Positions 1,686 to 36,698 of a stretch of DNA of 42,673 nucleotides are shown in pieces. Source of the DNA: a virus; IMG/VR virus record IMGVR_UViG_3300023284_000229, positions 1 through 42,673 of that record. One strand, given 5' to 3'. Under the pieces are notes generated by a model, which saw only the letters and a program-made list of their open reading frames with translations, was not told the DNA's origin and did no database searches. Positions within the stretch are counted from its first letter, which is position 1, and every line of letters begins with the position of its first letter. Both the position numbers and the translations under genes were made by a program.

Positions 1686-3524
1686 TTAAAAGTATGTTGT
1701 TACTATCATTTGTCCTAATCCTCCAGCTCCACTTGTGAATGATGAATTTGCTCCTCCTCCACCACCTGCAGGCTGTGCTCCTGCGACTCCATTTCCACTC
1801 TGATTACCAGCTCCTCCATTTCCTCCATGTGTGGATGTACCACCTGCACCATCTGAACTAGAACCAGTTCCCCCTCCGCCAGCTCCACCCCAGTAAGAAT
1901 CACCACCAACTGCACCAGCTCCGGCAACATCAGCTCCACCACTTGCTGAATAAAAACCATCTGCTCCAGCTAAGTTTTGAGCACCCGCAGCATATATTCC
2001 AGCAATAGTTATAAATGGTGAACCTCCGTCACCACCCGTTTCATTACCACCACCACTTTGGATGCCACCCTTGCCTGCTTTTGCAATAAAGAAAGAACCA
2101 AGAGTTGTGTCGGCACCAGCATTTCCATTTGTACCACTTCCTGTAACTCCAGTACCCCCTGCACCGACGGTTACTGTTTCTGTTGCTCCTAAATCACTAG
2201 CTGTAAGCCAACCAGAGCGATATTCACCTCCTCCACCACCTGCGGCATTAGTAGTTTGTCCTGCACAACCACTTCCACCTCCTCCCCATGCTTCTACTAA
2301 TACTTTTATAGCACCTGCTGGTTTTGTCCATGTTCCTGAGCCTGTAAAAGTTTGAACATCAATAAGTGTAGTAGTTGCAAGTTGACTAATCATCTGAAAG
2401 ACATCACCTGATGAATCATACTGAACAATTACGCTTTGAATAGCTTCGATATCTCCTGCGGCTAAATCTTGATCATGTTGTTTTTTAATTGTCTTGGCAC
2501 CTAGTCCGTTTACATTTAAAGTAGAAGCACCTGTATTGGCATTTGTTGCACGGAATCGTACAAATTGACCATCAGTTAACGCTGTTGGTACTGGAGCAAT
2601 CGTCACTACATAAGCATCCGCTGCTCCTGAATCTACTGCGTAGCCTTGAGTAGCATCTGCTAATTTTGTAGAAGCATCTTTTTCTCTTGCTGTTAGATAG
2701 TCTCTAAAATAAGGGTCAACGACAATTTCTGTTGTTGAGATAGCAATTCCGACTGGTCGTTCAATGGTCCCTGCACTTGAAGCAATTTCCCCTGCGGTAT
2801 CTGATAAGAAATTAATACCTAGAGTAAGTCCTGTTTGTGTTTTATCTAATCCTTGTGTTAAGACACCATTTGCAATAGCGTTACCATCTGTTCCTGCTCC
2901 CTGTGCGACACCTATCTTTATAATATCTGTGGTTGCAATAACAGAAGCGTCTGTTTTCTTCCACTCCCTATCTGCGGGGTCTAGAAATACCCAATCACCA
3001 GCGGCAACTGTTTCTCCTGCTGTTCCAGCGATTATAATTCTATCAATGTTTGCTGAACCTGTTGCAGCGGCGTTTAACTGAGTTAGATTAACTAAATCAT
3101 CACCTGAAACTGCTTGGTTTGTTGAGTTTGGAACGGTTGCAAATGAATAAGTTCCATTGACTGTCTCATCGTTCTCTTTGTTGGCGAAACTATCATAAAA
3201 AGCTGCTGTATTAGATAGGACTAAAACAGCTCCTGCACCATGAGCTACTCTAAGAGAAGTATCTTGTGTATATGGAGAATCAAAACGAATACCTCGTGTA
3301 ACTCCTGTGAGTGTTGTTCCTGTTACACCTGTAAAAGTAATAGATTCCTCTCTGGTAGTACCAGGTTCTATTGTTGCAAAGTTTAATGTTCCTAAATCAC
3401 CAGAAACAATAGCCGTACCATCTGGAAAATTGAAAGATGATAAGGCAATTGAAGTATCTGACAGTGAGATACTTGCTGAGAGTGTATGTTTTTGAGTCTG
3501 ATTATAGAGTCTATTATCTGCCAT
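1686..3524 (-). CDS. Tail fibre/receptor-binding protein with glycine-rich C-terminal domain
   Basis: 612 aa. Residues 1-280 are a beta-rich shaft-like region. Residues 293-382 form a module with NANTGASTLNVNGLGAKTIK that is also present in the 362-aa protein at 7717-8805. Residues 389-612 are the glycine-rich domain common at the ends of phage fibres, opening TFTGSGTWTKPAGA and followed by runs of GGGGSG and GGAGG. ATG at 3524 follows directly after a conserved 12-nt-loop hairpin (3525-3552). The gene ends just before the 671-aa protein gene. The role in host-surface binding is inferred from the family of the C-terminal domain. Confidence 0.85.
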   Translation of the reverse strand: MADNRLYNQTQKHTLSASISLSDTSIALSSFNFPDGTAIVSGDLGTLNFATIEPGTTREESITFTGVTGTTLTGVTRGIRFDSPYTQDTSLRVAHGAGAVLVLSNTAAFYDSFANKENDETVNGTYSFATVPNSTNQAVSGDDLVNLTQLNAAATGSANIDRIIIAGTAGETVAAGDWVFLDPADREWKKTDASVIATTDIIKIGVAQGAGTDGNAIANGVLTQGLDKTQTGLTLGINFLSDTAGEIASSAGTIERPVGIAISTTEIVVDPYFRDYLTAREKDASTKLADATQGYAVDSGAADAYVVTIAPVPTALTDGQFVRFRATNANTGASTLNVNGLGAKTIKKQHDQDLAAGDIEAIQSVIVQYDSSGDVFQMISQLATTTLIDVQTFTGSGTWTKPAGAIKVLVEAWGGGGSGCAGQTTNAAGGGGGEYRSGWLTASDLGATETVTVGAGGTGVTGSGTNGNAGADTTLGSFFIAKAGKGGIQSGGGNETGGDGGSPFITIAGIYAAGAQNLAGADGFYSASGGADVAGAGAVGGDSYWGGAGGGGTGSSSDGAGGTSTHGGNGGAGNQSGNGVAGAQPAGGGGGANSSFTSGAGGLGQMIVTTYF

Positions 3525-3552
3525 TACATTTCACTTCTATCCCTGAAATGTA
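3525..3552 (-). promoter_or_regulatory. Start-site hairpin with conserved AGGGATAG loop (fibre gene)
   Basis: On the minus strand an 8-bp perfect stem TACATTTC/GAAATGTA encloses the 12-nt loop AGGGATAGAAGT. The ATG of the fibre gene follows the stem base with no gap. Hairpins with different stems but nearly the same 12-nt loop precede the portal (15643-15678) and large terminase (17146-17169) genes. The purine-rich loop could act as a presented or masked Shine-Dalgarno sequence or as a protein-binding site. Confidence 0.8.
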
Positions 3553-3578
3553 TTTATTTTATAATAATTATAACACTT

Positions 3579-5384
3579 TTAGGTCTTTATGGCAAAATTG
3601 CCCGAAGGAGCTAATCGTGTGTTTGGACCATGACTAAGAATTTCAAAGCTTGCTCCATCTACCGTTGTCTCATATGTTGTCTGCATTTCATAGAAGTCAG
3701 TAGCTTTCATGGTAGGAATCTGCCTAAACTTAGGTTTATCATCCAATGCAACGGGTGAGCTCCCTAATCCTGCTTGTCCTAGACCCTTTTTACCTATAGA
3801 AGCGTCATCTGATGAAGCAAATCTGAATTTTTCATTACTTCCGTCTAAAGTAAATTCTTGTGTTCCTGAAGCTCCTTGAAAGTCATAATCAAGCCTTAAA
3901 GTTACTTTTGTGTTCGGTGTCATGTATAGTTCGTTGAAATATTCATCAAAGTTCTTAATAACAGCCCTGTCTCCAAAGTTTCTATATGCAAATTTAGCTA
4001 TAAATTCAATAGGGTTGCCATTATCAGTGTTTCCTGCGAATAGTTTATATGTTTCTGCGGTAGTATTTGAGTGAAAATGTATTTCTCCGTCTATAATCGC
4101 TAGTTTTCTAATAGGAAGAATCTGTGGTGGTTGCCAATATCCTTTACTAAGATCGTATATATAAAGCTTACTGTTTACAGGAGATGCAATGAGTATTTGA
4201 TTTCTAAAGTATTTTGTATGTCCGTTGGTAAAATCTTCAGCAGCAAAGTCTGGTTTAATAGGATCTGATATATCTTTTGACTGTGGTGTTGGGATTGTTT
4301 GACTTATACGTCCTAATGTATCCAATGTAGGTTCATTAGAAATAAGAATGACATCATTTTTGATCTTTGCTATAAGATCTTGTGCCTGTGCAGCCTGTCG
4401 TGGACCTGTTTTAAGTCTCCTAATAGTGAGAGTTTGTTTTAAGTTATCGCTAGAGAGAATGAAGTTAGTCTGATACCACTCATCTTTCCCTGCTGTCATG
4501 TACATTTGGTCTTCTTGGGGTACAAAACCTACGGTTGCGTTACTGAGAGTTATTAAAGCTCCTTCTCCTGGCAATCGTGGTGATGAGAAAGAGAAATCAA
4601 GAAATGTTGTGTTTTTAGATATAAATACTTCACGACTTTTAAGTGATCCAACATAGATTTGGTTCTCCAATTCACTTATGAGATCGTTTGCAAAAGCATT
4701 AGGAAGTCCTGTAATAGTACTATTAGCGTTTACTCTTACTGTTTGTATTGCAATAGCATTTGTGGCTATTCCTGAAGCGTCAGGTGTCACCCCTGTTAAA
4801 GTATCGGTCCCTTCTCCACCTGTGTAAGTAAATACAGTACCTCCAATTGTAACCTGTGTAGTTCCCCCGATTAAAAAGCGAGATTCTGCCCATGTTGCGT
4901 TATCTGTGGTGTTTTTGGTAATGGTAGTGGTTGTCGATGAAGCGACTGAAGTAACTCCTCCGCTCCATTCATAAATATTAGAGGTTCCATCAACAAATAA
5001 TAGTTCATCTAAAGCTTCAGTAGTATCCCAGAAAGTAGTGAACTGCATTAATGAAGTCGTACTGAAAGTATCTCTCACACGTGTCCAAGCATTTACCGCA
5101 ACACCGTCTATTGTTCCTAAAAATACCTCTAATTCATCGTCGTGCAGTCGTAAAGGCAGTTCCGTACCTGTTGAAGTATTCCACTCAAAAGAGCTTCTAA
5201 TTGGATTACCAGAAGCATTAGCAGCACCAAGAAGCTCAAAGCCTTGTCGGCTTTCAACCTTTTCAGCGTCGTTTACGAGCATATTCTGTGAACCAGTGAC
5301 TAAATTACGAATAGACGTGTTAGTGCGATCTGGTTTAGTGTGATATCCACGAAAATTGCTTATGAGTTGATATTTTTCAGCCAT
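3579..5384 (-). CDS. Large structural protein, probably tail hub/nozzle or DNA-stabilisation type
   Basis: 601 aa, beta-rich, without signal peptide or membrane segment. The N-terminus (NFRGYHTKPDRTN, then QNMLVNDAEKVESRQGF) resembles podoviral proteins of the P22 gp10 / T7 gp12 kind, which begin by listing constants and then form a beta-propeller. A repeated pattern of short strands and turns continues to about residue 480. The ATG overlaps the stop region of the upstream 414-aa adaptor gene (start at 5384, stop at 5385), so the two are probably translationally coupled. The specific assignment is an inference from order and composition; that it is structural is likely. Confidence 0.6.
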   Translation of the reverse strand: MAEKYQLISNFRGYHTKPDRTNTSIRNLVTGSQNMLVNDAEKVESRQGFELLGAANASGNPIRSSFEWNTSTGTELPLRLHDDELEVFLGTIDGVAVNAWTRVRDTFSTTSLMQFTTFWDTTEALDELLFVDGTSNIYEWSGGVTSVASSTTTTITKNTTDNATWAESRFLIGGTTQVTIGGTVFTYTGGEGTDTLTGVTPDASGIATNAIAIQTVRVNANSTITGLPNAFANDLISELENQIYVGSLKSREVFISKNTTFLDFSFSSPRLPGEGALITLSNATVGFVPQEDQMYMTAGKDEWYQTNFILSSDNLKQTLTIRRLKTGPRQAAQAQDLIAKIKNDVILISNEPTLDTLGRISQTIPTPQSKDISDPIKPDFAAEDFTNGHTKYFRNQILIASPVNSKLYIYDLSKGYWQPPQILPIRKLAIIDGEIHFHSNTTAETYKLFAGNTDNGNPIEFIAKFAYRNFGDRAVIKNFDEYFNELYMTPNTKVTLRLDYDFQGASGTQEFTLDGSNEKFRFASSDDASIGKKGLGQAGLGSSPVALDDKPKFRQIPTMKATDFYEMQTTYETTVDGASFEILSHGPNTRLAPSGNFAIKT

Positions 5385-34633: not shown

Positions 34634-34774
34634 TTGATAACTGAGTAGAGGAGACAAGAAATCAACATTACTTGCCTTTCTTGTGGCACCTTAGCTCCAT
34701 TTGGAGTCGTAAGAGTACTTGCCCCTTACTTGGTCGGGTATTTGACCATCTCCACTCCTCTACTCAATTATCAA
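34634..34774 (-). ncRNA. Structured RNA D: 20-bp closing helix with internal hairpins
   Basis: The arms 34634-34653 and 34755-34774 pair over 20 positions. The single imperfect pair is G.U on the minus strand and C.A on the plus strand. Inside are ACAAGAAA/TTTCTTGT (8 bp, 34654-34684), CTCC/GGAG with a 4-nt loop (34695-34706) and GGTC/GACC (34732-34747). The multibranch shape resembles a compact folded RNA of about 141 nt. Confidence 0.75.
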
Positions 34775-34808
34775 AATGCTTTCCCCTCTATCCCGTCGGT
34801 CGAGGTGG

Positions 34809-34854
34809 CTTACTTTTAGCTGGCACATTATTTCTCCCGCCAGTCCCTAGTAAG
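34809..34854 (-). ncRNA. Structured RNA E: two-part hairpin
   Basis: CTTACT/AGTAAG (34809-34814/34849-34854) encloses CTGGC/GCCAG (34820-34824/34839-34843). Smaller than its neighbours and probably a sub-helix of a larger fold with elements D and F. Confidence 0.5.
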
Positions 34855-34880
34855 AAGGTTACTTTGGATATCAGATAAAC

Positions 34881-34952
34881 TGATTAGTGGATTATGAGGG
34901 TTACCGCAGTGCCAATCTTTCGATTGCTTACTCCCCCACAATCCACTAATCA
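34881..34952 (-). ncRNA. Structured RNA F: 13-bp helix capped by a GAAA tetraloop
   Basis: TGATTAGTGGATT/AATCCACTAATCA is a perfect 13-bp helix. At its tip CAATC-GAAA-GATTG (minus strand) carries a GNRA tetraloop, a loop type often used for tertiary contacts. Short GGG/CCC and AGT/ACT pairs lie between. It follows the zinc-ribbon gene by nine bases. Confidence 0.7.
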
Positions 34953-34961
34953 AACTACCTA

Positions 34962-35096
34962 TTATTTACCTTTACGCCACTTTCTATAGTTTTCGTTACT
35001 TTCTTCTGCTTTTTTTAATCGACATTCCACACAATAAATACTTGGTGGACTTTTTTCATGTTCGTTATTTTTACATTCTGCACATTTTGATGTCAT
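34962..35096 (-). CDS. Small zinc-ribbon protein inside the RNA region, 44 aa
   Basis: ATG at 35096, TAA at 34962. MTSKCAECKNNEHEKSPPSI is followed by YCVECRLKKAEESNEN, giving two CxxC pairs spaced 14 residues apart, then a basic end. It is the only credible gene in the 34.4-36.3 kb RNA interval. It might bind the neighbouring RNAs, which is speculation from position. Confidence 0.65.
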   Translation of the reverse strand: MTSKCAECKNNEHEKSPPSIYCVECRLKKAEESNENYRKWRKGK

Positions 35097-35118
35097 ACTT
35101 TGTATATTAGTTACTCAC

Positions 35119-35342
35119 TAAATACTGGAGGCAAGGATTTCCATTTTCACCTTGCATGACATTATCTTTGCTCTTCATGTCTAGGGTATTTACAAAGTTC
35201 TCCCTCGAGAAAAAACCACCCCTAGCGTCTACTTTTCTATACCCCCTACTTTCCTACCTGCTCTATGATTAGGGGCTTCCCACTCCATAGATTTTCTCAG
35301 TTTCGTAAGATATAGATGTCTATTCCGCCACTCCAGTATTTA
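35119..35342 (-). ncRNA. Structured RNA G: large multibranch element
   Basis: A perfect 12-bp helix TAAATACTGGAG/CTCCAGTATTTA closes 200 nt containing at least six local helices: GCAAGG/CCTTGC, GACAT/ATGTC, CTAGGG/CCCTAG enclosing TTCTC/GAGAA, CCCCTA/TAGGGG and ATAGA/TCTAT. No reading frame of note lies inside. Such density in AT-rich DNA is far above what I would expect by chance. Confidence 0.7.
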
Positions 35343-35362
35343 AAGAACGACTTATAATAGAT

Positions 35363-35503
35363 GTGCTATTGTGGCAGTATCTTCATTACTTACTAGTATG
35401 CGAGTAGCTTTTTACCTATAAAACAATTGTATTTTCTATTAGGCGATATTTCCTTCCGAGAAATATCATTTTGTAATGAAGCGCATACCACCACAGCAAT
35501 ACA
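35363..35503 (-). ncRNA. Structured RNA H: long interrupted helix
   Basis: TTCATTAC/GTAATGAA (8 bp) is extended outward by GTAT/ATAC, TGG/CCA, TATTG/CAATA and GTG/CAC with small internal loops (about 23 pairs). The apical part contains the 8-bp hairpin GATATTTC/GAAATATC (35445-35467). It lies between elements G and I. Confidence 0.65.
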
Positions 35504-35510
35504 CCTATAA

Positions 35511-35600
35511 ACAAAAATCCCCGTACAATTAAGTACAGGGTTTCGATATCCTCTGCCCGTATGAAGGGGCAAATTATACGGGGATTTTTGTTATCGAAAC
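35511..35600 (-). ncRNA. Structured RNA I: possible pseudoknot of 15 bp and 9 bp
   Basis: ACAAAAATCCCCGTA (35511-35525) pairs perfectly with 35577-35591 (15 bp). GTTTCGATA (35540-35548), which lies between those arms, pairs perfectly with 35592-35600 (9 bp), directly next to the other helix. The order A-B-A'-B' defines an H-type pseudoknot with potential coaxial stacking. A competing hairpin (GTAC/GTAC plus CCC/GGG at 35518-35539) would exclude it. A small hairpin TGCCC/GGGCA lies in the loop. Confidence 0.7.
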
Positions 35601-35614
35601 TCGTACTTACTTAC

Positions 35615-35643
35615 AGTATACCACCTATCACAGAACAATGCAA
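35615..35643 (-). promoter_or_regulatory. Possible extended -10 promoter for RNAs I-H-G
   Basis: Minus strand TGGTATACT gives an extended -10 (TGn plus TATACT at 35620-35615). The -35 position has only TTGCAT. Start would be near 35608, eight bases before element I. Confidence 0.4.
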
Positions 35644-35693
35644 AGGAGTTTATCCACAACCATTTCGTTGGTATCAACACAATGGTCTAAAAG

Positions 35694-35727
35694 AAAAAGG
35701 CATCGTCCTAACGGTCGACACCTTTTT
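35694..35727 (-). terminator. Terminator hairpin 3 of the RNA region
   Basis: Minus strand AAAAAGG...CCTTTTT with an inner TCGACC/GGACGA-type helix and loop, followed by CTTTTAG. The A- and T-rich ends make it usable in both directions. Confidence 0.6.
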
Positions 35728-35733
35728 CAAATA

Positions 35734-35795
35734 TTTAATGTTCACATCTCATACCTCTGCCACAGAGTATGTATGAGATGTGGCTGAATATTAAA
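35734..35795 (-). ncRNA. Structured RNA K: 12-bp plus 5-bp hairpin
   Basis: CACATCTCATAC/GTATGAGATGTG (12 bp, 35743-35754/35771-35782) stacks on CTCTG/CAGAG with a 3-nt loop, and TTTAAT/ATTAAA can close the base. It sits between two terminators, so it may belong to a separate small transcript. Confidence 0.65.
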
Positions 35796-35865
35796 CCTTT
35801 CGGTTCATAGCTCCTTTAGAAGTCTGTTTAAGAATCATCCCTGCTCAGCACGGGAACTAACTCCG

Positions 35866-35899
35866 AGGCATAGGAGATAGTGGCTTACCGACTATGCCT
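35866..35899 (-). ncRNA. Structured RNA L: small hairpin
   Basis: AGGCATAG/CTATGCCT (8 bp) closes an 18-nt loop. Next to it is the short hairpin CCCGTGCTGAGCAGGG (minus strand). Upstream part of the same short transcript as element K. Confidence 0.5.
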
Positions 35900-35920
35900 T
35901 GTGTGTTTAGTATACTAAAA

Positions 35921-35946
35921 GAAAACCACTACGTCTAGTGGTTTTC
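35921..35946 (-). terminator. Terminator hairpin 2 of the RNA region
   Basis: Perfect 11-bp hairpin GAAAACCACTA/TAGTGGTTTTC with a 4-nt loop. On the minus strand it is followed by TTTTAG after TTTTC. Confidence 0.75.
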
Positions 35947-36035
35947 CCCAAAGCAACTATCTATGACTATTTAGATAATGCGTCCCACGTCGTTAATCGT
36001 AGGACTATATAATTGTACAACAAATATTACAAAAA

Positions 36036-36057: not shown

Positions 36058-36117
36058 AATTTGTTCTTGTATTTAAAAAAATATTTATTAGATTGTCTTC
36101 TTTGTACAACTATATAC

Positions 36118-36272: not shown

Positions 36273-36698
36273 TTAGTTATTACTTGTCAATACCTCAGAT
36301 GACCAAAATCCTATAATTCTACTATCATCCCATTGTATAAACCTTTCAGAATATTCACATTTCTTATAGTTTCCTTCTCTCACATATATACCTCCTGGCA
36401 TTATTGCCATTATAACTGCTACGTGACTTAAATCTCCATATCTCATTAAAACAAGCCCTCCTACTGTTGGTACAGAGTTGGGCTTGAATTGGTAAGCGTG
36501 TTGTCTAGGAAGTTCAAATTTAGAGTATATACGTGCTGTGGCAACACATTCACATAATACGTTGTATTCTTCTTTAACTTCTTGCTGTGGTCCTTGTACA
36601 GGCTTCAGGGGCACATTTATTACCACAGGACTGTCGTACTGTATGACTTGTTCTGGTTCTACAAATAAAAGGAGTAGAAATGAAAGCATAGACCTCAA
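36273..36698 (-). CDS. CHAP-like peptidoglycan hydrolase candidate
   Basis: 141 aa. Hydrophobic start like a signal peptide (MLSFLLLLFVEPEQ). NVLCECVATARIY supplies the candidate nucleophile Cys near residues 49-51, GDLSHVAVIMAI supplies His92, and YVREGNYKKCEYSERFI carries the Glu/Asn position. This order fits a circular CHAP/NlpC-type papain-like fold. It ends the late operon next to surface proteins and may be a virion-associated or lysis enzyme. Confidence 0.65.
   Translation of the reverse strand: MRSMLSFLLLLFVEPEQVIQYDSPVVINVPLKPVQGPQQEVKEEYNVLCECVATARIYSKFELPRQHAYQFKPNSVPTVGGLVLMRYGDLSHVAVIMAIMPGGIYVREGNYKKCEYSERFIQWDDSRIIGFWSSEVLTSNN

Follow-up and report, generated by a model that had tools for sequence, protein, structure and literature searches.

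Intrinsic terminators and leader attenuators consist of a GC-rich hairpin followed by a U-tract and stand at the start of operons, with attenuators also offering the terminator arm an alternative, upstream pairing partner. To our knowledge, control by RNA only is rare at early promoters, put, EAR and conAn2 being the examples, and put lies just downstream of early promoters. Structured RNAs that act on the transcription of their own operon have been described as put in phage HK022, EAR in the Bacillus eps operon and conAn2 in pLS20 (PMC8955417). The large structured noncoding phage RNAs ROOL and GOLLD contain pseudoknots and are found near tRNA genes (PMC12286853).

The locus considered here belongs to an uncultured bacterial virus, an IMG/VR record of 42,673 bases, the whole of which is referred to as the window. 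Inside the late/early junction of this genome sits an element that, judged from its sequence, looks like a self-contained unit of promoter, pseudoknot and terminator, not an internal domain. It shares with terminators and attenuators the hairpin, the U-tract and the position at an operon start, and with attenuators the alternative partner for the terminator arm. Unlike in attenuators, the alternative pairing and another helix are woven into a pseudoknot, for which there is no known ligand, protein partner or leader peptide. By its position just downstream of a predicted promoter, in the window and in two relatives (G014 and G004), the element may be likened to put, EAR and conAn2, but it carries its own U-tract. 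In contrast to ROOL and GOLLD it would appear to form a short unit of its own; the GOLLD covariance model (RF02032) gave no match at E 10, nor did the ROOL model (RF03087) even at E 10, for which the control search was also without a match. HDV-like ribozymes have the topology P1-P2-P3-P1'-P2', which the order b-a-hairpin-b'-a' of the element resembles, whereas its first helix is of 9-10 bp, a P4 or catalytic segment is not visible and the G014 version is without P3. A search of the whole of Rfam at a relaxed threshold returned only chance-level or below-cut-off matches, none reaching the gathering threshold, the best of them being rli51 (25 bits vs 48, E 0.014), and Rfam gave no match to the structured junction as a whole.

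Arms and probable reading strand of the element

The element is made up of two perfect helices, A (15 bp) and B (9 bp), in the interleaved order A-B-A'-B' of an H-type-like pseudoknot (Table 1). A letter-for-letter check of the arms agrees with the initial annotation on this order, on the perfection of both helices and on the contiguity of A' and B'. In the minus-strand RNA the order becomes b-a-b'-a', with 28 nt, including a small hairpin, between a and b' and 14 nt between b' and a'. Under coaxial stacking the 14-nt loop would have to span both helices, and would be strained.

Table 1. Positions of the element and of the features around it, in the window and in related contigs
Feature	Position	Strand	Sequence or description	Basis or remark
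Promoter-like site	35615..35644	-	-35 TTTGCA, 18 nt, extended -10 TG-N-TATACT	consensus match only
b, 5' arm of helix B	35592..35600	-	GUUUCGAUA	perfect complement of 35540-35548
a, 5' arm of helix A	35577..35591	-	ACAAAAAUCCCCGUA, contiguous with b	perfect complement of 35511-35525
Small hairpin, first loop	35554..35571	-	UGCCC-cuucauac-GGGCA	present in the MFE fold and under both constraints
b', 3' arm of helix B	35540..35548	-	UAUCGAAAC	complementarity
Loop between b' and a'	35526..35539	-	14 nt, also 5' half of competing hairpin	
Competing terminator-type hairpin	35519..35540	-	CCCUGUAC-UUAAUU-GUACGGGG, then AUUUUUGUUU	8 pairs, 5 GC, loop 6
a', 3' arm of helix A	35511..35525	-	UACGGGGAUUUUUGU	complementarity
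U-tract, predicted 3' end of short RNA	35509..35517	-	UUUUUGUUU	termination point inferred
Structured noncoding late/early junction	34640..36000	-	~1.4 kb	z-score, composition-corrected scan
44-aa ORF within structured stretch	34962-35096	-		
Promoter-terminator unit	start near 36111 to terminator 36036	-		
Promoter-terminator unit	start near 35997 to hairpin 35921	-		
Promoter-terminator unit	start near 35902 to hairpin 35693	-		
Shared CTCGGAG..TTAG motif	35867-35825; L122 (G010) 5102-5150	-; +		
tRNA-Leu-like RNA	35341-35120; L177 4835-4680; L116 14157-14255	-; -; +		
Element in G014	L177 4971-5046		GCATGGTGAG-ACAAAAAGCTTCGGC-..-CTCACCATGC-..-GTCGGAGCTTTTTGT-TT	
Element in G004	L116 about 3503-3577		order kept, TTGACA promoter-like site, U-tract	

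The initial annotation was made on the plus strand. The RNA is nevertheless very probably of minus-strand sense, to judge from the gene direction, the extended -10 promoter-like site and two strand-specific G·U pairs. All larger predicted genes of the window are carried by the minus strand. Helix A extends via a U-G pair to 20 bp in the minus-strand RNA, the plus strand having an A-C mismatch at that position, and the competing hairpin contains one U-G pair, in the minus strand only. The promoter-like site matches 9/12 consensus positions, with TG before the -10, and would place the start at about 35608, ~8 nt before b; matches of the 9/12 type number 12 in the region vs 6.9 in shuffles.

With a stacking sum of -46.2 the element is the top contiguous b-a-b'-a' pseudoknot of the window. 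Three rounds of mononucleotide shuffling, applied to the window and its relatives, reached a sum of -40.7 at best, and 10 Mb of dinucleotide shuffles held a single score of -46 or better, which was without promoter and U-tract, and none of -38 or better with both. Neither helix is therefore plausibly accidental, and the pseudoknot structure is fairly well supported. It is very improbable that the repeats instead act as DNA, for example as repressor operators or as a component of an origin of replication located at this late/early boundary. Inverted repeats at an operon boundary would fit such a role, but the interleaved order, the U-tract and the G-U pairs suit an RNA and not a protein-binding palindrome, and a search for a replication origin by GC skew found no turn at the site.

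Predicted folding order and proposed effect on transcription

Helix A alone is the minimum free energy (MFE) fold, at -36.1 kcal/mol, while helix B nested with the competing hairpin forms a legal fold of -29.8 kcal/mol. The pseudoknot is estimated at about -38 to -42 kcal/mol, assuming a penalty of 7-10 kcal/mol, in line with the earlier description of a compact pseudoknot with a competing fold. The hairpin of that description is real, but its supposed disruption of both helices is not: it takes up 7 of the 15 pairs of helix A, the inner ones, and no more than the outermost pair of helix B, so that B is left almost intact and can nest with it. The inner half of a' supplies its terminator arm, and the GC-rich hairpin at 35540-35519 is followed by ATTTTTGTTT, as in an intrinsic terminator. 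MFE folds of growing chains, a proxy for kinetics and not a simulation, run from B to the terminator hairpin and reach A only once the U-tract is out, an order in keeping with the switch-like behaviour proposed at the outset.

Such an order allows a mechanism to be outlined. Transcription would begin about 8 nt before b, and helix B, with the small hairpin inside, would form first on the emerging RNA, leaving strand a in its loop. The local hairpin at 35540-35519 would form next, beside the U-tract, and could release RNA polymerase to give a short RNA. Alternatively, a may capture a', so that a helix A of 15-20 bp passes through the loop of B, yielding a pseudoknot which draws on that very terminator arm and in which the U-tract is enclosed by a helix. 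Which fold prevails on the polymerase would then determine what share of transcription ends as a short, stable RNA and what share continues into the structured early leader.

The analysis itself shows the arms, the competing fold, the U-tract, the predicted energies and the recurrence in relatives; promoter use, the direction of transcription, termination and the control of read-through are inferred. There is perhaps an even chance that the element is a self-contained regulatory RNA of ~100 nt at the start of the early region, read from the minus strand, in which co-transcriptional folding decides between termination and read-through; the folding order, the shared terminator arm and the position heading the early region fit such a decision. 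No minus-strand promoter of at least 9/12 is found between 35510 and 35097, so any downstream gene or RNA expressed from this site would depend on read-through. A search of the same genome for long stretches able to pair with the RNA gave nothing beyond chance, the longest being 12 nt vs 10-13 in shuffles.

Versions in related phages

Sequence homologues of the element were found neither by blastn in phages and plasmids, nor by exact pattern in viral contigs, nor by nhmmer in all collected loci. Protein queries from two fast-evolving neighbour genes gave no relatives and a terminase alignment gave mostly distant phages; an alignment of the portal protein recovered the phage's own family, at 34-54% identity, one outlier aside. 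The family set includes a dozen long contigs, read piecewise. A blind scan of this set for the contiguous pseudoknot architecture with promoter and U-tract, at a score of -36 or better, gave four matches at looser cut-offs, namely the element, window 34952-34881, G014 and G004. Window 34952-34881 passes the pseudoknot filter and was discounted, its helix B being only 5 bp and rivalled by a long simple hairpin. With a stricter helix-B cut-off the element, G014 and G004 remain, three matches vs about 0.14 expected in DNA of the family, a figure which derives from one match in 10 Mb of shuffles; the same scan in 2.9 Mb of mostly other phages gave none. Most near-complete relatives have no such element by the architecture scan, and in G010 the corresponding position is occupied by a promoter and a long closing stem, the terminator being separate.

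The G014 element stands at the late/early boundary, directly 3' of the sole early-direction promoter-like site found before the early ORFs, and read-through would therefore be needed if the early genes are made from that site. Its helix B is of 10 bp. When it is compared with the window from the junction of b and a, 8/9 pairs of helix B and 4/15 of helix A are changed on both sides, amounting, in a match by architecture and position, to 12 double changes among 24 pairs, with one one-sided change and no pair lost. As no collection searched contained a sequence homologue of the element, this covariation is drawn from architecture and position and not from a sequence alignment. The U-tract is conserved, the ACAAAAA/TTTTTGT sequence being identical in both. 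In G004 the element is also at the late/early boundary, behind its promoter-like site; helix A is kept, with 18 bp, and helix B is weak, with five clear pairs, or seven only if two pairs are taken from A. Directly after the G014 element, at L177 5050-5090 (+), there is a second, classic H-type pseudoknot, GCGAG-ATAT-AATCGGC-TAC-CTCGC-AAAAC-GCCGATT.

The element could also be a terminator only: helix A would then act as a plain intrinsic terminator, perhaps a bidirectional one, with an upstream A-tract, and helix B would be incidental. The GC core of helix A between A5 and U5 would fit this, as would the MFE folds, which are A alone in the window and A-type in both G014 and G004, and the weakness of B in G004. 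This reading is nevertheless unlikely, given that B is perfect, abuts A exactly and lies inside its loop in both the window and G014, that nearly all comparable B pairs differ between these two on both sides, and that terminators do not usually have a loop as long as 51 nt. Differently spelled versions in two relatives, one strong and one weak, suggest a real regulatory element. More tentatively, and with some doubt, it may represent a new family of RNAs of phage early transcripts in which the terminator arm is woven into a pseudoknot and folding during transcription, unaided or assisted by a factor of the phage or the host, switches between a short RNA resistant to nucleases and continued transcription of the early operon. 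If the mechanism outlined above is right, the transcription of early genes in a whole family of uncultured phages would be decided by a compact and easily assayed RNA, in which a terminator and another helix are knotted together. The natural versions, with their almost unrelated helix sequences, make the pairing directly testable.

The late/early junction and its other features

Read along the minus strand, the structural and lysis genes end with an ORF at 36273, and the ~1.2 kb 3' of this late ORF (36272-35097) are without a clear gene. The 44-aa ORF follows, then further structured noncoding DNA to about 34640, beyond which come small early-type ORFs, a DNA methyltransferase, an ERF recombinase, an ATPase and a terminase. 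The stretch 35097-36005 (909 nt, minus strand) is strongly structured, at z = -12; the sliding z-score scan over the relatives was composition-corrected.

The strongly structured surroundings support the earlier view in part. That the element is a domain of one larger RNA is doubtful, since a promoter-like site of its own lies just upstream, a terminator-like U-tract stands at its end, and the G014 element heads the early transcript at the 5' end. It is rather unlikely that a single large, ornate phage RNA of at least 900 nt extends across the whole junction, in the manner of GOLLD and ROOL, with the element as an internal domain. The z-score, the many helices on both sides, the downstream tRNA-Leu-like fold with its relatives and the gap in minus-strand promoters downstream of the element would agree with such an RNA. 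Against it are the ROOL and GOLLD models without a match, three hairpins of terminator type, with U-tracts, that together with several promoter-like sites split the stretch into short units, and G014, where the element heads the early side and the tRNA-like RNA is on the other strand.

The tRNA-Leu-like RNA, present at three loci (Table 1) and expanded in the window, has an acceptor-type stem, GTGGCGGAAT..., GTAGACGC and an arm with a UGAAAAU or UGCAAAU loop. ARAGORN misses these RNAs; G019 has a true tRNA-Leu(UAA) at L188 1443-1359. The 44-aa ORF encodes a small cysteine-rich (zinc-ribbon-like) protein and is probably real, because the protein is conserved in G005 (L120 16880-16782, minus strand; 58% over 33 residues). 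Just after this ORF, at window 34953-34880 (-), lies a 20-bp hairpin with an inner GAAA-loop hairpin, at z about -8.

Further short promoter-terminator units stand in a row at window 36146-35690 (-), possibly an array of small RNAs. The noncoding junctions of the window and G010 have in common the motif CTCGGAG..TTAG..ATGATTCTTAAA, also written CTCGGAG..TTAG..GGGA(A)TGATTCTTAAA; wider matches, beyond G010, are chance-like and in coding sequence. Structured inverted-repeat elements occur between the portal and capsid genes of relatives (L123 2495-2580 and L101 6128-6211), and a long inverted-repeat element, GGAGCTATCC..ATATCAAAAACCTTGCA.GGTTG, is common to two relatives (L165 3706-3834 and L189 7079-7201).
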